A DNA stretch of 64,000 nucleotides. It comes from Thiomicrorhabdus aquaedulcis. Its GTDB lineage: Bacteria > Pseudomonadota > Gammaproteobacteria > Thiomicrospirales > Thiomicrospiraceae. The DNA lies in assembly GCF_004001325.1 (NCBI RefSeq), contig NZ_AP018722.1:992001-1056000 (forward strand), given 5' to 3'. Below are positions 2,421 through 64,000 of the stretch, in pieces. The position numbers and the translations under genes are program-made. Each line of letters opens with the position of its first letter. The stretch's first letter is position 1. The notes under the pieces were generated by a model that was not told where the DNA came from, made no database searches, and saw nothing but the letters and a program-made list of their open reading frames with translations.

Positions 2421-2856
2421 CTGGTTAGTTTATTTACCGCGACACTACTACCGTCATGCCGTGCCACGACACGGCATCTGCTCTGCATACGGAAAAATGC
2501 AATAGATGGCGCGTCAAGCCCGCAATGACGTGGTTTTTGTGGTGTTCAAACAGAATGACCAGGCCTGGTTAGTTTGTTTGCCACAACACTACTACCGTCA
2601 TGCCGTGCCACGACACGGCATCTTCCTGGTACTCCGTAACGTCAATAGATTGCGGGTCAAGCCCGCAATGACCTGGTTTTTGTGGTGTTTAAACATAATG
2701 ACCAGGCCTGGTTAATTTGTTTGTCACTACACTATTACCGTCATGCCGTGCCACGACACGGCATCTTCCTGGTACTCCGTAACGGCAATAGATTGCGGGT
2801 CAAGCCCGCAATGACCTGGTTTTTGTGGTGTTCAAACAGAATGACCAGGCCTGGTC
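2421..2856. repeat. Three tandem ~143-bp repeat units of nested palindromes
   Basis: Three head-to-tail units fill the gap between fhs and cbiB: a divergent first copy (2421-2556) and two nearly identical 143-bp copies (2557-2699, 2700-2842), ending in a final palindrome. Each full unit carries the ACCAGGCCTGGT palindrome (2558, 2701, 2844), a hairpin around ATGCCGTG..CACGGCAT, and a hairpin ATTGCGGG..CCCGCAAT followed by GAC. The hairpins resemble the ATGCCG/GGATC intergenic palindromes common in proteobacteria. Short ORFs across the array repeat with the unit and do not look like genes. The array lies between the 3' ends of convergent genes, so it could act in transcription termination. Confidence 0.9.
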
Positions 2857-10830: not shown

Positions 10831-12677
10831 AGTTTTTTACAAGCGTTGTGTTTTTATTTTTTTTACACATGCAGTTTAACGTTGTTGCGGCAGAGTTTGG
10901 TGCCGTAAGCCAAGGCGAAGCCTCGTTAAAGCATCAAGTTAATCAGTCTAATGAAAATGTAAAACTAGAGGTTGTGGTTGATTTAGTAGAGACAACAAGT
11001 GGTGATGCAACAACGCCAACTGCTGTGGATAATATGGCTGAACTGTCTGAGAAACTAAAAAATGAAATTGGGTTAATTCACTTAAAAGACGATGAATATC
11101 CTGCACAGACCGACTTTCTATATCGTAGAGCAGAAAATGAAATTTTGGATGCTTTAAGAGCGCTTGGTTATTACAGTTCTAGCGTGACTAGCCAACTTGA
11201 GCGGCTCCCTAAAAAAACGCGTGTTACTTTTAATGTCGAGTTAGGCAAACCAGTTTATATTCGAGATATTCATTTAAACATTAGCGGAGCGGGCAAAGAC
11301 TTACCAGTTTGGGCAGAGTTTCAAAAATTTCAATTGCAACTAAAAAAAGATGCCATTTTTAAACATCAAGACTATACGGATACCGTAAGCGCCTTAACCA
11401 ATATTGCGACCAATGAGGGTTATATGGATGCCAAATTTACTCAGCGTGAATTTAAAGTCTATCCGCACCTTAATGTAGTGGATGTGAACCTGCATTTTAA
11501 TACTCAAGAACCGTATCGGTTTGGCGTGGTGTTTTTTCATGGCAGTCAACAGATAGGCGATGCCTTTTTAAATCGCTATGTCGATTTCAAGCCTGGTGAT
11601 ATTTATAAGCAATCCCATATTCTTGCTCTGCAAAAAGCGCTAATAGACAGCCAATATTTTGGTTTGATTCGGGTCGCACCCCAATATTCCGAGCAAGAGG
11701 CGCGTCGTATTCCTATCGATGTTGAATTGGAAGACAGTCTTAAACATCTTTACGAGATAGGGGTTGGATATGGAACGGACACGGGGGCGCGTGTTTTGTT
11801 TGGTTTTGAAAATCGTCTGGTGAATTCGCAAGGTCATAGTTATAAAGTTGAAAGTTTATTTGGTGAAAAAGCACAGAACTTTAATTTTAACTATCGCATT
11901 CCAGGTGAACGTCCAGCTGAGCAAAACTGGAATGCCGGTCTTAAGTATGATGCGACACAATCCACTACTTTAGATAGAGAGTTGATGGCCATTACGGGTG
12001 ACTACAGTTATCAAATTACGCCAAAATGGTCGATTAACCCTTTTATTTCATTAGAAACCGAAGAGTTTACCTATGAAAATGAAGCAACTGAGCAAACGCA
12101 AACTTTTTTATTAGGGTCTGGCTTTAAGAATCGTTGGGTTAATAGTGATGCCTACCCAACGCAAGGGTATCACCACAGTGGTGTGTTTAGAGCCAGTGTT
12201 GACAATCTAGTGTCCGATTCGCAGTTTGCGCAAATTGAGTTAAAAACCCGCTGGGTGTATACGCCGATGGAGTTCTGGCGTTTCCATGTTCGCGCCCAAA
12301 CGAGATTGACGTTAGTAGATAAAAACCAATCGATTCCTTCAAGTTATTTAACGCTTTTAGGGGGCGAGACCTTGCGAGGTTTTGAATTTGAATCTATTGG
12401 TATTCAATTGGATGCCGATTCTGTCGTCGGGGCAAAAAACAGTGTTTCAGGGTCGCTGGGTACCGATTACCGCATTACAAAATATTTTGGCCTGGGTTCG
12501 TTTGTTGATATGGGTCAGTTATTCGATGATGCCGGAACACAAGATTTGAAAGTGGGCGCAGGTTTTGGCTTACGTGGCTATACACCGGTTGGCATGGCAA
12601 AACTTGATATCGCTTGGCCGGTTTCCGAATATGAGCAGCCTTGGCGTATTCACTTCTCACTCGGATTTGATCTATGA
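10827..12677 (+). CDS. tamA: Translocation and assembly module protein TamA
   Basis: Outer-membrane BamA/Omp85-family protein that works with TamB in assembling or supplying the outer membrane. 616 residues. A signal peptide covers about residues 1-22 (ends NVVAAEF), followed by a low-complexity acidic segment. Three POTRA-like repeats span roughly residues 65-290 (for example EILDALRALGYYSSSVTSQL, and RFGVVFFHGSQQIGDAFLNR). A 16-strand-type barrel follows with GVGYGTDTGARVLFGFENR and the conserved FxxGG-like LLGGETLRGFEFESIG; it ends in the phenylalanine-containing FSLGFDL. It is directly followed by tamB, the standard order. A TATAAT promoter lies about 105 bases upstream. Confidence 0.93.
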   Translation: MKFFTSVVFLFFLHMQFNVVAAEFGAVSQGEASLKHQVNQSNENVKLEVVVDLVETTSGDATTPTAVDNMAELSEKLKNEIGLIHLKDDEYPAQTDFLYRRAENEILDALRALGYYSSSVTSQLERLPKKTRVTFNVELGKPVYIRDIHLNISGAGKDLPVWAEFQKFQLQLKKDAIFKHQDYTDTVSALTNIATNEGYMDAKFTQREFKVYPHLNVVDVNLHFNTQEPYRFGVVFFHGSQQIGDAFLNRYVDFKPGDIYKQSHILALQKALIDSQYFGLIRVAPQYSEQEARRIPIDVELEDSLKHLYEIGVGYGTDTGARVLFGFENRLVNSQGHSYKVESLFGEKAQNFNFNYRIPGERPAEQNWNAGLKYDATQSTTLDRELMAITGDYSYQITPKWSINPFISLETEEFTYENEATEQTQTFLLGSGFKNRWVNSDAYPTQGYHHSGVFRASVDNLVSDSQFAQIELKTRWVYTPMEFWRFHVRAQTRLTLVDKNQSIPSSYLTLLGGETLRGFEFESIGIQLDADSVVGAKNSVSGSLGTDYRITKYFGLGSFVDMGQLFDDAGTQDLKVGAGFGLRGYTPVGMAKLDIAWPVSEYEQPWRIHFSLGFDL

Positions 12678-12693
12678 AGCGCCTGAGCCAAAA

Positions 12694-15600
12694 ATGATGG
12701 GGATTTTATCGGCAGTTTTTAAGTGGAGCATCCGATTATCCGTTGGCTTGCTCATGGTTTTGTTGCTTGGTGTTTTCGCACTACTCTCGCTTACTTTGTG
12801 GCATCCACAGGCGGTTTCCACGGCTTTGCCTTATTTAGAGCACTATGTTGAACAATCTACCGGTGGACAATTACAAATTGAATCAGCAGAAGGGCGTTTA
12901 ATCGACGGTTTAACACTGAATAACATCCGCTTTAAGAGCGCGGCACAAGAGGTGAAAATTGAGCAAATTAAATGGCAATGGCAGTTGTCTATGTTGTTTA
13001 ATCGCCATCTGCAGTTTCAAACGTTTACTGTCACTCAACCCACGGTACGTTTAACGAGCAGTGATGAGCCGTCAGAGCCTTTAACAGAGCCGTTTAAGCT
13101 GTTGACGGAACTAGAGGCCTATGATTTGCGCTGGAGCATTGATCTTTTGAAGGTCTCTCAGTTGCGTTTGTCGATTGACGACCAGCCTACGATTAAGGTT
13201 GCGCATTTTGAGAGCGAGCTAGACTGGCAAACGCAAACGTTGTTTTTACAAAATTTAAAGGCCGATTACTTGGCTTATAAAGTGCAAGCACATAGCCATT
13301 TTGAGGTGGTCAATGCCCGCGAGTTTAAAGCCTTTTTATCGCTAAAATTAGCAGGCTCGGAGGGGTTTGAAACGATTAACGTATCCACCCAGGCCACGGG
13401 CGATTTAAAGCAGATTCGTTTTAATCTGGACATGATTGAGCCTTACAGGGTACGTTCGGAACATGTTGTCAAGATAGATGAAACCCTGATTCAGCTAGAT
13501 TCAACGTTTAAAGAGCTTGAAGCAGCTTTTTCTGAACAGTGGCAGATTAATCAGCTGTCTGGGCAAATTCGTTCACAGTTTCATTTAAAAAATTACCTAT
13601 TATCGAGTCATGGCAAACTGAGTCTGGACCTTAAAGGCAAGCCGCCAACGGCATTGGATTATCGCGCGGAATATGCGTCAAATGGGAAAGCGACTTTTGA
13701 TTTAAAAACTCAATTTGAGAAGATGGGTTCTTTAAATGTGAAAGGGCAAGCCGATCTTCAGAAGATGAGCAGCACCGTGAGTGTGCAGGCAGATGCGCTG
13801 AATCTCCAATGGCTTGATGCCAGGTTGAATTACCAAATCAGTGCCTTATTTGATTTTACCTTGCGTGATTTTGAGCAACGCACCAGTCAGCTGGCAGTGA
13901 AACAGCTGGCGTTAACCGGGTTGCCTAAGCCATTCACTTTTAAAGGGGTCATTGACAGTCATTTGACTCCACAAAACAGCGAAGCAATCGAAAAATCAAC
14001 TGTAGCACCCAAGGCAGTCGCTCCAGAGGGGGCATTCGATTATGCGATTGCAATTCAATCGGAAGCATTAGGTTATGCAGAGTATTTGGGAAAGTTTGCG
14101 GCAAAACTCAATGTTAGCTCGGATTTTAGTCATGTGAATGTTCACGATGCCAAACTTGTCGTGGGCGATAACGCGATTGATTTGAGAGGACAATGGGCAG
14201 AAAATACCAATCTTTCATTAAAAGCCAAGCTGAATAATCTTAACCAGTTGTATGCACCGCTCACCGGCAACGCCGTAGCAAATTTAACGGCGAAGGGGAG
14301 CTTGTTGAAAGACCTATCAGGATTTGACCAGGCCTGGTTAAACTTGCAATTGGATGCCAATAACCTCAGTTATCAATCTCCCGATGCGCCAGCTGATGAA
14401 AAAATGAGGATTAAGCAGGTTGCTTTAAACGTGCAAGCGCCTTTACATCAACTTGAGTGGACTGCATTCTCCCTTAAGGTGAATGAGGTAAGTAAAGTTA
14501 AGCGGATTGCTGATAAGATGGTGGAACAGACACTTATTTCTCAACTGAGTGCAGTGCGTCAAGAGTCTAAAAAAGGCTTGGCCAGCAGTCTTAAAATGAG
14601 TCATCCACAGTTAAGTTTTAATACTGAATTGTATGAGGTAAAACCCAGTTTAAAACAACAGAAAATAGCCTTGACACGTTTTGATATCGTGCAAGCAGAT
14701 ACCGGTAACTGGCAGTTGGCCAAGCCCCGTGTTATTGATTGGCAAAGTCCTTCCAAAATCTCAACCGATGAGATATGCATTCAATCGGTGAAAAATACTG
14801 ACGCTAAAGTTTGTTTTAAGGCTTACGAACATAAGGCAACTTGGTCACTGGATGCCTTGCCAGTGTTTGATTGGGCAAAACCGTGGTTAGGTGAAAATGT
14901 CCTATTAACAGGACATCTTAACGGTCAAGGCTCTGCCGACTGGCGAAAAAAACTCACATTGCAACAAGATTTGCTTGTGCCTCAGTTGGATGTAACCGTG
15001 ATTGTACAAGGCAATCAAATACCCATGCAGGTTAATAACTGGCAAACCAATCTCCAGCTCACGCCTAATCAGGCCGGTTTAAAAAGCGTAGCCGAAGTGA
15101 ACAAAACGGGACATTTTAATGCCTTGGTTGAGGCGATAAAGTCAACTGACCAGGCCTGGTCACTTGCAACGTTAAACGGAAAAGCGCAGTTGACGCTTTC
15201 TAATTGGGCATTAAGCGAACAATTCTTGAAACTCGTTGAATTTAATCAAACGAACGTAAAGATTGAAACTACGCTTTCTGGCACACCTGCAGAACTACAA
15301 CACAGTACTTTGGCCAATATTGACCTAAATTTTAATTTACCTTTGCTGGGGTTAAAAGAGCAAGCGGTGCAACTACAAGCGCAACTGACACCGAAAGCGG
15401 TTAATGCCACTGGCGTATGGAAGCAGCAGGTGGGTCTGGTGGGTAAACGACAAGCAGATTTAAACGTTAACTTGACGGCATTAGACACAGAGCCACACCT
15501 ATTAGCGCATTTTAAAACCGATTCTATCGAGTTGCTAAAAACTCCGTTTGCGCACCTGATGACCGCGGCCGATATGCATATTTCTGTAATTAATAAGGCA

Positions 15601-57126: not shown

Positions 57127-57285
57127 GAGACCTTTGCACGAGTCAGGTGCGAAAGAAAAATGAGGAAAAATTAACCTGATTGCGGCGGAAAACGCAGTGA
57201 ATAGCTGGCTATTCGCAAGTTTTTCAACAAAAATCAGGTTAATTTTAACCATTTTTATTCGTGCATTGACTCGTGCAAAGGTCTC
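57127..57285. mobile_element. MITE-like element, copy 2 (inverted relative to copy 1)
   Basis: 159 bp, ends GAGACCTTTGCACGAGTCA and its near complement at the right (TGACTCGTGCAAAGGTCTC, ending 57285). Reverse complement of the copy at 23150-23310 with roughly 12% differences by eye. It ends 19 bases before the nucleotidyltransferase gene and may supply or block its promoter. Confidence 0.85.
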
Positions 57286-57304
57286 ACTCAATAGGCAAAG
57301 CACG

Positions 57305-57604
57305 ATGAGATTAACCTGTCAGCAAATTGAAGCAATAAAGCAGGCTGTTACAGATATTTTTGGGTCGCAAGCTCGTGTAAAGCTTTTTGGCTCAAGAGTT
57401 AATGATCAGGCTAAGGGGGGAGATATTGATTTGCTCATTGTGAGTCAAAATGCCATCGAAAAACCCGTTCAACTTGCCTCTAAACTGGCTGCTAAAATTT
57501 ACAGAGCCTGTTTAGGCCGAAAAGTGGATGTTGTCATTGATGCTCCAAATATTGAAAAGCAATCTATTCATAAGATTGCAAATGAAACGGGTATTTTTTT
57601 ATGA
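57305..57604 (+). CDS. MNT-type minimal nucleotidyltransferase
   Basis: 99 residues from ATG 57305; a longer open frame runs back through the MITE-like element but is not credible. GSRVNDQAKGGDIDLLI carries the GS..DxD catalytic signature of minimal nucleotidyltransferases, and a later VDVVID may give the third acidic residue. Such proteins are antitoxins of HEPN/MNT pairs. The stop overlaps an ATG (ATGA) for a following frame that is only eight codons long, so the usual HEPN partner looks lost. Confidence 0.85.
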   Translation: MRLTCQQIEAIKQAVTDIFGSQARVKLFGSRVNDQAKGGDIDLLIVSQNAIEKPVQLASKLAAKIYRACLGRKVDVVIDAPNIEKQSIHKIANETGIFL

Positions 57605-57630: not shown

Positions 57631-58842
57631 ATGAGCAATAAAAGTCTAAAAATACTGGTTACCGGCGGTGCCGGTTTTATTGGCTCGGCGCTGATAAGAC
57701 ACTTAATAAACCACACTGCGCACCGTGTGGTAAACGTGGATAAACTCACTTATGCGGGTAATTTAGCGTCGCTTACATCGGTGGCGCATAATCCCAGATA
57801 CGTCTTTGAGCAAGTAGATATTTGTGATGCCGTGCAATTACAACGGGTTTTTGCGCAGCACGCGCCCAATATTGTGATGCATCTGGCGGCCGAAAGTCAT
57901 GTAGATCGCTCGATTGATGGGCCGGCCGAGTTTATTCAAACCAATATTGTCGGCACTTACACACTGCTAGAACAAGCGCGGGCGTATTGGAACCAGCTCA
58001 CCGGCGACAAAAAAGCCAGTTTTAGGTTTCATCATGTTTCAACCGACGAAGTGTATGGCGATTTACCGCATCCCGATGAATTAACACAGCGTCATGCCGG
58101 ACTTAATCCGGAATATCTTCCCTTGTTTACCGAGCAAACCGCCTACGCCCCAAGCTCACCTTACAGCGCCAGCAAAGCCGCCAGCGACCATTTGGTACGC
58201 GCCTGGCACAAAACCTACCAACTGCCTATTGTGGTGAGTCATTGTTCTAATAATTACGGACCGTATCAGTTTGCCGAAAAGTTGATTCCCCTGGTGATAT
58301 TAAATGCCCTAAAAGGCAAACCCTTGCCTTTATACGGCAACGGCCAGCAAATTCGCGACTGGCTTTACGTAGAAGACCACGCCCGCGCTCTGGTTCTGGT
58401 AGCCACCCAAGGCCAAATAGGCCAAACCTACAACATAGGCGGCCACAACGAAAAACAAAACATTCAAGTTGTCACCGCCATCTGTTCAATCTTAGATGAG
58501 TTGGTGCCTGTAAACACCAAGATGCCGGATCAAGTCCGGCATGACGAACTCCCGTTGCATCACGACGAAACACCTTTACGTCACGACGAAATACCTTTAC
58601 GTCACGACGAAATACCTTTACGTCACGACGAAACACCTTTACGTCATTCCGGACTTGATCCGGAATCTGCCAAAGGTTATGCGCACTTCATAACCTATGT
58701 AAACGACCGCCCCGGTCACGACAAACGCTACGCCATAGACGCCAGTAAAATACAAAACCAACTGGGCTGGACACCCCAAGAAACCTTTGAAAGCGGCCTG
58801 CGAAAAACCGTGCAATGGTATTTAAACCACCAGGCCTGGTAA
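57631..58842 (+). CDS. rmlB: dTDP-glucose 4,6-dehydratase with an in-frame repeat insertion
   Basis: Second step of dTDP-rhamnose synthesis. 403 residues, about 45-50 more than usual. NAD motif [37 protein letters not shown], the catalytic [15 protein letters not shown], and [16 protein letters not shown] are intact, and the C-terminal [20 protein letters not shown] is normal. Between LDELVPV and KGYAHFI an insert of about 50 residues is built from repeats (58519-58671). The last codons include a palindrome (58829-58840) read as HQAW before the stop. The active site is unaffected, so the enzyme may still work. Confidence 0.93.
58521..58666. repeat. Palindrome-bounded 21-bp tandem repeats inserted in rmlB
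   Basis: A hairpin ATGCCGGA-tcaag-TCCGGCAT (58522-58542) and an oppositely oriented relative ATTCCGGA-cttga-TCCGGAAT (58646-58666) enclose about four to five 21-bp units of the type ACGTCACGACGAAATACCTTT, translated as PLRHDEI/T repeats. The whole insert is in frame. Confidence 0.9.
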
Positions 58843-58967: not shown

Positions 58968-59564
58968 ATGATAATAAACCACGTAAAAGAAATTTTTATT
59001 ATTGCTGGACCTAATGGCGCGGGTAAGACCACGTTTGCATTAGGTTTAATTGACGAAGGAATTATAAAGCATTATCTAAACGCCGATGAAATCGCCAGAG
59101 AGCTTTCACCTTCAGACCCACAAAAAGCCAATATTAAAGCAGCACGGATTTTTTTACGCAGACTTAAAGTTTTATCGCTGGGTAATGAAAGCTTTGCCTT
59201 AGAAACAACACTCTCAGGCTTGCGTTATTTAGAGCATATAAAAGAGTGGCAAAGTGCAGGCTGGATGGTATCTGTTTTTTATCTACTTCTTAGCTCGCCC
59301 GAAGTTTCAAAACAACGTGTCGCAGAGCGAATTGCACATGGTGGGCATAGCATACCTGAAAAGGACATAGTGCGCAGATTTCCAAAAAGTATTATCAATT
59401 TTTATAGGTACTATTCTAAGCAAGTAAATTATGCCGAATGCCTGTACAATGAAAACCAAGAACCATTATCAATATTTGAAGTGAAACAAGGTCAAGTAAT
59501 TATTAATCAAGTAGAGTTTTATGACTATTTTATGGAGTTAATTAAGCATGCAGAATCAAGATAA
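58968..59564 (+). CDS. Zeta-toxin-like P-loop kinase
   Basis: 198 residues. Walker A GPNGAGKTT at 14-22, the zeta-type NADEIAREL after it, SFALETTLSG, and RVAERIAHGGHSIPEKDIVR with RRFPKSIINFYRYY are typical of the zeta toxin/UDP-GlcNAc-kinase-like family found in chromosomes. Its 3' end overlaps a 61-codon gene by 17 bases. Unlike the plasmid epsilon-zeta system the small partner is downstream. It could be a toxin or a housekeeping kinase; the polysaccharide setting makes a sugar-nucleotide substrate thinkable. Confidence 0.85.
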   Translation: MIINHVKEIFIIAGPNGAGKTTFALGLIDEGIIKHYLNADEIARELSPSDPQKANIKAARIFLRRLKVLSLGNESFALETTLSGLRYLEHIKEWQSAGWMVSVFYLLLSSPEVSKQRVAERIAHGGHSIPEKDIVRRFPKSIINFYRYYSKQVNYAECLYNENQEPLSIFEVKQGQVIINQVEFYDYFMELIKHAESR

Positions 59565-62762: not shown

Positions 62763-62853
62763 CTTTAAACGGTTATTATTGCGGGTTACGTAAGCTAAAC
62801 TAAATTAATTTAGACAGACAAATTTAATTAAAAATAAAAAAGTAGAATAAGAA

Positions 62854-64000
62854 TGAAGATTGCAGTGGCCGGAACAGGTTATGTGGGGTTATCTTTGGCG
62901 GTATTGTTAGCGCAGCACCATGAAGTGGTAGCGTTGGATATAATGGCCGAAAAAATTAACTTACTAAACAATAAAAAGTCACCTATTGCGGATGATGAGA
63001 TTTCGGATTGTTTAGCCAATAAAACGCTAAACCTAACCGCTACATTAGATAAACAAATGGCCTATAAAGAGGCAGAATTTGTAATTATCGCTACACCAAC
63101 CGATTACGACTCTGTGACCAATACCTTTAACACCCAGTCGGTAGAGGCGGTTATTGCTGACGTTTTGGCTATAAATCCTTGCGCTGTTATGGTTATTAAG
63201 TCAACGGTTCCGGTTGGTTATACAGAGCAGGTTAATGCCAAATTTAATTGCGACAACATTCTTTTTTCACCAGAATTCTTAAGAGAAGGCAAAGCACTTT
63301 ACGATAACTTGCATCCCTCGCGGATTATTGTGGGCGAAAAATCCGAGCGTGCCAAACTCTTTGCCAATTTATTAGTAGAAGGAGCGGTCAAGCCAGCACA
63401 AGAAATTTCGGTGTTGTTTACCCACGCCACCGAAGCCGAAGCGGTAAAACTGTTTTCAAACACCTACCTTGCTTTGCGCGTTGCCTACTTTAATGAACTA
63501 GACACATACTGTGAAACCCACGGTTTAAACTCAAAACAAGTTATAGAAGGCATAGGTTTAGACCCTCGTATTGGCAACCATTACAACAACCCAAGCTTTG
63601 GTTATGGCGGCTATTGTTTGCCTAAAGACACCAAACAACTACTGGCAAATTACAATGACGTGCCACAAAACCTAATCAAAGCCATCGTAGACTCAAATAC
63701 CACCAGAAAAGACTTTATTGCCGAACAAGTCATTAAAAAACTCAACGAAACCAAATCGCATAATGCAAAAAACGAGATGATTAATCAAGTTGAACATGAC
63801 GGTAAGCAAAGCCGTGATTTTGAGCCAATCTCACGTCATTCCGGGCTTGACCCGGAATCTTCAGCGCCCACTGTTGGCATTTACCGCCTAGTTATGAAAC
63901 AAGGCTCAGACAACTTTCGCGCCAGCGCCATTCAAGGTGTTATGAAACGTCTCAAGGCCAAAGGCATAAATATTGTTATCTACGAACCGGTGCTAATTGA
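62854..64000 (+). CDS. ugd: UDP-glucose 6-dehydrogenase, 3' end outside the window
   Basis: Oxidises UDP-glucose to UDP-glucuronate for polysaccharide. Starts [20 protein letters not shown] (NAD motif), then [32 protein letters not shown], and the catalytic cysteine in [20 protein letters not shown]. Toward the end a segment of about 36 residues (from [11 protein letters not shown] to [12 protein letters not shown]) is inserted before [20 protein letters not shown]; it contains a CCGGG-palindrome. Likely the first gene of an RfaH-dependent operon. Open to the window edge. Confidence 0.95.
63838..63858. repeat. Palindromic repeat inside ugd
   Basis: ATTCCGGG-cttga-CCCGGAAT, a relative of the right-hand palindrome in rmlB, translated as RHSGLDPES. 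Confidence 0.9.

Follow-up and report, generated by a model that had tools for sequence, protein, structure and literature searches.

REPs are usually viewed as extragenic, and for the GTAG REPs mobilisation by RAYTs is supposed. The CGTC REPs are described as having a stem of 8 to 9 bp with AT nearly always in the first two positions, a loop of 4 to 5 bases and a short tail, which is CCA in most, and head-to-head is their predominant arrangement, with most pairs spaced 20 to 100 bp apart (PMC3733652). In the same account, RPE-4 and RPE-6 of R. conorii are classed as CGTC REPs, and REPs within ORFs are reported (Di Nocera et al. 2013, PMC3733652). The RPEs of Rickettsia are described as stem-loop elements of 105 to 146 bp, and a guanylate kinase of R. 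conorii carrying a palindromic insert is reported to have been still active, with a changed substrate affinity (PMC2229807).

The DNA analysed here (the window) is a stretch of 64,000 nucleotides from Thiomicrorhabdus aquaedulcis (contig NZ_AP018722.1, positions 992,001 to 1,056,000). It contains the first of two rmlB copies (rmlB1; 57631..58842, + strand), encoding a dTDP-glucose 4,6-dehydratase of 403 aa (TIGR01181, E 9e-144, above the cut-off), the product of which was matched to PDB entries 1g1a and 1bxk both by sequence and by fold. The adjoining ORFs are presumably a small nucleotidyltransferase-like gene (57197-57604) and a P-loop (zeta-toxin-like) ATPase-like gene (58968-59564). At the second of two insertion sites in rmlB1 (site 2), two 27-bp palindromes, inverted near-copies with 2 bases different, both matching the REP pattern, form a head-to-head pair; the left REP (58520..58546, - strand) reads MPDQVRHDE on the + strand, and the right REP (58642..58668, + strand) reads RHSGLDPES and has exact copies genome-wide only at its own site and in rmlB copy 2. 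They enclose five 21-bp units (58543..58647, + strand; pattern match, tag-to-tag reading, with starts at 58543, 58564, 58585, 58606 and 58627) encoding heptapeptides of (P)LRHDE type. The unit consists of GACG, 11 bp, CGTC and AC, with AT at the end of the last unit and CATC in place of CGTC in the first. The spacer of the first unit is AACTCCCGTTG and that of the later units AAACACCTTTA or close variants, the junction between units (CGTCAYGACG) is palindromic or nearly so, and the outermost units (first and last) have tags in common with the flanking REPs. TRF placed a 21-bp array at 58560-58646 (4.1 copies, 96% matches), and searches of the window, on both strands for the unit pattern, gave 7 matches to that pattern (at most 1 mismatch) and 7 to the REP pattern (at most 3 mismatches), whereas 100 shuffles averaged 0.00 matches to either. 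When the rmlB1 product was aligned with 1g1a, the RmlB of S. enterica, query residues 302-346 were left unaligned. An earlier, sequence-only reading of this DNA had described opposed palindromes around 21-bp repeats in rmlB, adding about 50 residues of PLRHDE-type units; both descriptions were confirmed.

The palindrome has the form CGTC / ATTCCGGA / CTTGA / TCCGGAAT, with the CGTC tag unpaired at one end. Its stem (ATTCCGGA/TCCGGAAT) has 8 bp and begins with AT, as is usual for CGTC REPs (the site-1 REP described below is imperfect), and its loop of 5 bases, CTTGA, is inside the CGTC REP range of 4 to 5. The site-2 pairs of both rmlB copies, the sites at which pairing was surveyed, are head-to-head with a spacer of 95 bp, inside the range of most CGTC pairs. 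In the CGTC tag, the 8-bp stem starting from AT and the 5-base loop the element resembles CGTC REP family 2, and further likenesses to the CGTC REPs are the head-to-head pairing at site 2, the known intragenic copies and, as far as the Y1_Tnp genes examined below allow, the absence of a known dedicated transposase. The rmlB pair is unlike the CGTC REPs of PMC3733652 in that its spacer is a 21-bp tandem array, and behind the stem it has a CTG or CTT tail where most of them have CCA; moreover, the genic copies here are in one region, and the same RmlB loops were hit in several genomes. The anatomy fits that of CGTC REPs, and the site-2 element would accordingly be classed by its letters as a head-to-head CGTC REP pair. 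The likeness to the protein-invading palindromes of Rickettsia, to which the sequence-only reading had pointed, is sound in kind, with palindromes in frame within conserved enzymes in both cases and with RPE-4 and RPE-6 themselves being classed as CGTC REPs (PMC3733652), but head-to-head CGTC REP pair is the better name. Compared by description only, the Rickettsia RPEs of 105-146 bp (PMC2229807) differ from the element in rmlB1, which is a 149-bp compound of two 27-bp REPs and an array in a different organism. Paired or single palindromes and known ORF-internal copies are features shared with the GTAG REPs and BIMEs, which differ in their tag, GTAG; the one GTAG-like element seen in this analysis is at RmlB site 1 in a metagenome-assembled genome (L012, below). 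In coding tandem repeats (minisatellites) a short unit grows in frame, as it would have done here, whereas in rmlB each unit is delimited by the tags that belong to the REPs around the array.

Each 21-bp unit spans tag to tag, and the array therefore looks like an amplified REP spacer. We infer that a head-to-head CGTC REP pair may have inserted into a surface-loop segment of rmlB without disturbing the frame, and that a short tag-to-tag spacer (GACG-11 bp-CGTC) could then have been amplified to five 21-bp units, the reading frame being kept during array growth because 21 is a multiple of three. The earlier suggestion that the locus may show how such repeats grow is plausible to this extent: the unit borders lie on REP tags in both rmlB1 and the second copy, rmlB2, while the individual growth steps would be those just outlined.

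As the sequence-only reading had stated, the site-2 insert does not touch the active-site motifs; a REP that this reading had missed, at site 1, is in a loop between them. An AlphaFold2 model of the rmlB1 product with its insert (53 sequences, mean pLDDT 85.7) kept the core and left the insert disordered, with 266 of 403 residues at a pLDDT of at least 90, residues 304-334 below 50, and a TM-score relative to S. enterica RmlB of 0.90-0.92 by target length. The product would be a normal RmlB with an additional surface loop, hydrophilic and predicted to be disordered, and by analogy with the guanylate kinase of R. conorii this loop is expected to be tolerated and near-neutral. Were the His/Asp/Glu-rich heptapeptide array instead an adaptive part of the enzyme, binding a metal or a partner, five units and an open frame in both rmlB copies would be consistent with this role; we regard it as quite improbable, given that other RmlBs read are without the array or have unrelated peptides there, that the loop is predicted to be disordered and that the units of rmlB1 and rmlB2 differ. 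A conserved domain at this position was not found in distant RmlBs, those read having short loops there or unrelated inserts.

The second copy (rmlB2; L088, 3159-4436) is located 8 kb downstream, outside the window, and has a degenerate REP at site 1 and, at site 2, head-to-head REPs around an array of five units. A genome-wide search for the 21-bp unit (at most 3 mismatches) gave 7 matches, four in rmlB1 and three in rmlB2, and none elsewhere. The two genes were identical at 138 of 150 bases (92%) in the insert and at 826 of 1059 outside it (Fisher p 2e-5), and the corresponding numbers for third positions were 44 of 50 and 208 of 353 (p 3e-5); by segment, 75-84% of bases outside the insert were identical, and 72% in the site-1 loop. 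In a tree of loop-free RmlB cores, rmlB1 was placed with G020 of the same genus (support 95/87), apart from rmlB2, and an AU test did not reject the two copies as sisters (p 0.18). The simplest reading is that the insert moved between the rmlB copies after their divergence, and the site-2 insert may thus have become common to both through gene conversion or a second copying; the AU p of 0.18 is compatible also with an insert of older date, common to both copies and preserved by selection. Repeats can be mis-assembled, which would make the insert an artefact of assembly or sequencing, but distinct versions were found at two separate rmlB loci with both frames open, in a genome of 2 contigs and 99.96% completeness, and an artefact is therefore extremely improbable.

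Two other REPs of the window had been overlooked by the earlier reading, as had rmlB2. At site 1 of rmlB1, a single degenerate CGTC REP (58090..58116, + strand; 3 mismatches to the REP pattern) reads RHAGLNPEY in frame, in the loop following YGDLPHPDE, which is 6 residues longer there than in S. enterica RmlB. Within this loop, the REP falls between the invariant T138-D139-E140 and Y178/K182 of the product, which we take to be catalytic residues. A UDP-glucose 6-dehydrogenase gene (62853..64000, + strand, continuing beyond the window and complete in L088 354-1655; TIGR03026 over the cut-off, 3phl by sequence) contains a single CGTC REP in frame (63834..63860, + strand, reading RHSGLDPES), within a stretch of 43 query residues (297-339) that could not be aligned to 3phl. 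The GCGG-stem subtype is represented by three REPs in a 143-bp tandem repeat (2504-2530, 2647-2673 and 2790-2816, - strand), through which, in contrast to the genic kind, no open frame reaching 150 aa runs. The window positions 2421-2855 comprise three tandem copies of 143 bp, with REP-like palindromes in each and no long open frame.

CGTC REPs are repeated in the genome, and a pattern that takes in both stem subtypes, CCGG and GCGG, had 50 matches in the T. aquaedulcis genome (the exact CCGG form occurring three times), relative to 0 for a reversed-pattern control. Eight of the 50 were in stop-free frames of at least 150 aa (three each in rmlB1 and rmlB2, one in the UDP-glucose dehydrogenase gene and one in an epimerase-like gene, L151 1629-2609, in which the REP is a putative insertion), and for the remaining 42 the frames did not exceed 139 aa. 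All eight genic REPs were located at C1:1049-1086 kb, around sugar-nucleotide genes and within 35 kb, as opposed to 0 of the 42 others (Fisher p 2e-9, a value overstated because the region was picked after the matches had been seen and three of the matches are in a paralog). Inspection by eye identified 7 CCGG-type REPs in this genome (3 exact and 4 variant), all 7 of them genic. Elsewhere in the genus the CCGG pattern had 2 matches, one inside the rmlB of G024 and one in G013 in no ORF of at least 100 aa, and the CCGG subtype is therefore not gene-confined everywhere. The G013 copy (L167, G013:C66:88266-88292) has the same sequence as the left REP at site 2 of rmlB1. By uptake of further REPs, rmlB1, its paralog and the nearby sugar-nucleotide genes could have acquired their present copies. 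A second sugar-epimerase-like gene of this region (L202 ~12408-13403, corresponding to C1 ~1075407-1076402), which has an intact relative at L088 2086-3153, is by eye disrupted by two REP-like palindromes, which differ in type and are separated by a stop codon; insertion is therefore not always frame-keeping, as expected under selection for frame.

Among 32 genomes of the same genus (G000-G031), 18 had a strong RmlB match (E < 1e-70). REP-like inserts of several types were present in the first RmlB loop of 6 of these 18 (G000, G024, G025, G023, G011 and G015), the G015 insert having been recognised by eye, with no pattern match and folding no better than shuffles. In G025 a further REP was found at the second RmlB loop, and the 8 genome matches of the G025 pattern were distributed over rmlB (two), glmS (one), a 384-aa frame (one, at residue 4), a 118-aa frame (one) and positions in no 100-aa frame (three). 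The REP in G025 glmS (L162 9547-11571) lies within 51 residues unaligned with 4amv, an E. coli-type GlmS, and a REP pair in rmlD of G015 (L164 6958-7920) within 39 residues unaligned with 1vl0, a solved RmlD. A pattern derived from G023 and G011 gave 2 matches in G023 and 1, rmlB itself, in G011. In both G024 and G011 the rmlB copy was the sole genome match of its pattern, a result compatible both with transposition and with a REP that came in as part of the gene. As an alternative to local insertion, the REPs could have been present already in polysaccharide genes acquired by horizontal transfer. That the CCGG-stem REPs of the T. aquaedulcis genome were found only in these genes, that the sole G024 copy sits inside its rmlB and that rmlB1 groups with G020 and not with rmlB2 are in line with such a transfer, but the best named RmlB matches to rmlB1, which are mostly gammaproteobacterial, are at most 65% identical and point to no donor, and the sisters G011 and G024 (97/86) have different REP types in the same loop, which suggests within-genus events; we consider transfer alone a possible but somewhat doubtful explanation.

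In a class-wide sample, RmlB was matched at E 1e-90 in 85 of 140 genomes. Seventeen loci were fetched, mainly for a long match span, and therefore give no rate; the loops of 13 were read, while L187, L189, L194 and L195 failed the motif and were covered by the scan described below. Reading covered rmlB loops other than those of L083, L115 and L116. Three more distant genomes had REP-like inserts in RmlB loops. In the metagenome-assembled genome L012, a member of Gammaproteobacteria from another genus, the first RmlB loop had a GTAG-like element (16 matches in its genome), whereas the element of the second loop was of CGTC type (2 matches). The second loop was also the site of a CGTC-1-like REP in G153 and of a REP in G128, which in addition had a tail-to-tail pair in another loop, the third, near residue 123. 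For a second REP family (GTCATYGCGAG...GCRATCC), a search of six genomes gave 11 matches in four of them, all within about 23 kb of an rmlB, a proximity that is suggestive only because the pattern was taken from rmlB inserts and 3 of the matches are in rmlB itself; G128 had 4 matches, 2 of them in rmlB. A tag-plus-stem scan of 126 distinct rmlB CDSs, blind to degenerate REPs, produced 7 matches (codon-shuffled control mean 1.6 per set), of which 6 were at sites 1 and 2 (4 in the two T. aquaedulcis copies, the others in G024 and L012) and one, probably a chance match, at residue 276 of L018. Perfect-stem hairpins (at least 8) over 110 rmlB CDSs were also tried; many arise by chance, and alone they were uninformative.

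The 149-nt insert stretch of rmlB1 had a DNA fold z of -6.75, with 0 of 200 shuffles equally good, and an RNA fold z of -7.25, and the DNA fold z of the rmlB2 insert was -8.29. For several of the relatives' inserts the fold z was unremarkable (G025, -1.50 at site 1 and +0.06 at site 2; G023, -1.19; G015, +0.36; and outside the genus L012 site 1, -0.17, and G128 site 2, -0.70), and the assignment of these as REPs therefore draws on copy number or resemblance. The strong predicted folds in both copies, as well as the excess DNA identity of the insert between the paralogs, would be consistent with an insert that acts as DNA or RNA, its inverted arms forming a long hairpin in the rmlB mRNA that tunes expression, with the peptide incidental. 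This role is unlikely in view of the elements at the same loops in relatives, which are mostly single or weakly folding, and of the 12 of 18 same-genus genomes with RmlB that are without such an insert (G028 assessed by loop length alone). Taken as a whole, the anatomy, the copy numbers, the loop position, the REPs in the loops of relatives and the excess identity of the insert between paralogs are best explained by REP insertions tolerated in permissive loops, with amplification of one spacer, and we have good confidence in this explanation.

Searches for a source of mobility covered genes of the Y1_Tnp (RAYT) type, of which the T. aquaedulcis genome has two (L151 644-1480 and L161 ~1097-1781), one of them with a REP about 315 bp downstream. 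The inverted repeats flanking these genes are, by eye, arranged around GGGTCA motifs and unlike CGTC REPs, and a role of the Y1_Tnp genes, the one type examined, as dedicated REP partner is unsupported. No match to the insert region was found among plasmids and phages by blastn, and tblastn of the rmlB2 insert peptide against plasmids returned one Borrelia lipoprotein (44%, E 2e-3), which was taken as a chance match. A head-to-head pattern representing a one-unit ancestral pair had 0 matches in the viral contigs to which the search was directed. One viral contig, IMGVR_UViG_3300010163_003592, contains an exact CCGG REP (L199 10273-10299). In the literature covered by our search, which left out most subscription journals, neither REPs in rmlB nor a tandem array as REP spacer were described.

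In-frame REPs have precedents, those of Rickettsia among them; what appears to be new is that RmlB is a recurrent target, that there is a regional bias and that a REP spacer forms an array. Tentatively, polysaccharide regions may be recurrent landing grounds for REPs, with RmlB loops filled independently by both superfamilies, and in T. aquaedulcis a REP pair may have seeded an array that was copied to the paralog, giving rise to new repeat proteins, with the CCGG subtype surviving in this genome only in genes. The repeated REP hits at the same loops raise the question of whether genic REPs are random insertions that persist where the protein tolerates them or form a specialised class, and the two rmlB copies constitute a natural test of array movement between paralogs. 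The tag-bounded 21-bp array would show in concrete terms how a mobile palindrome can give rise to a repeat peptide, and the REP pair with an array between its halves suggests how scattered repeat DNA may be turned into new protein sequence.
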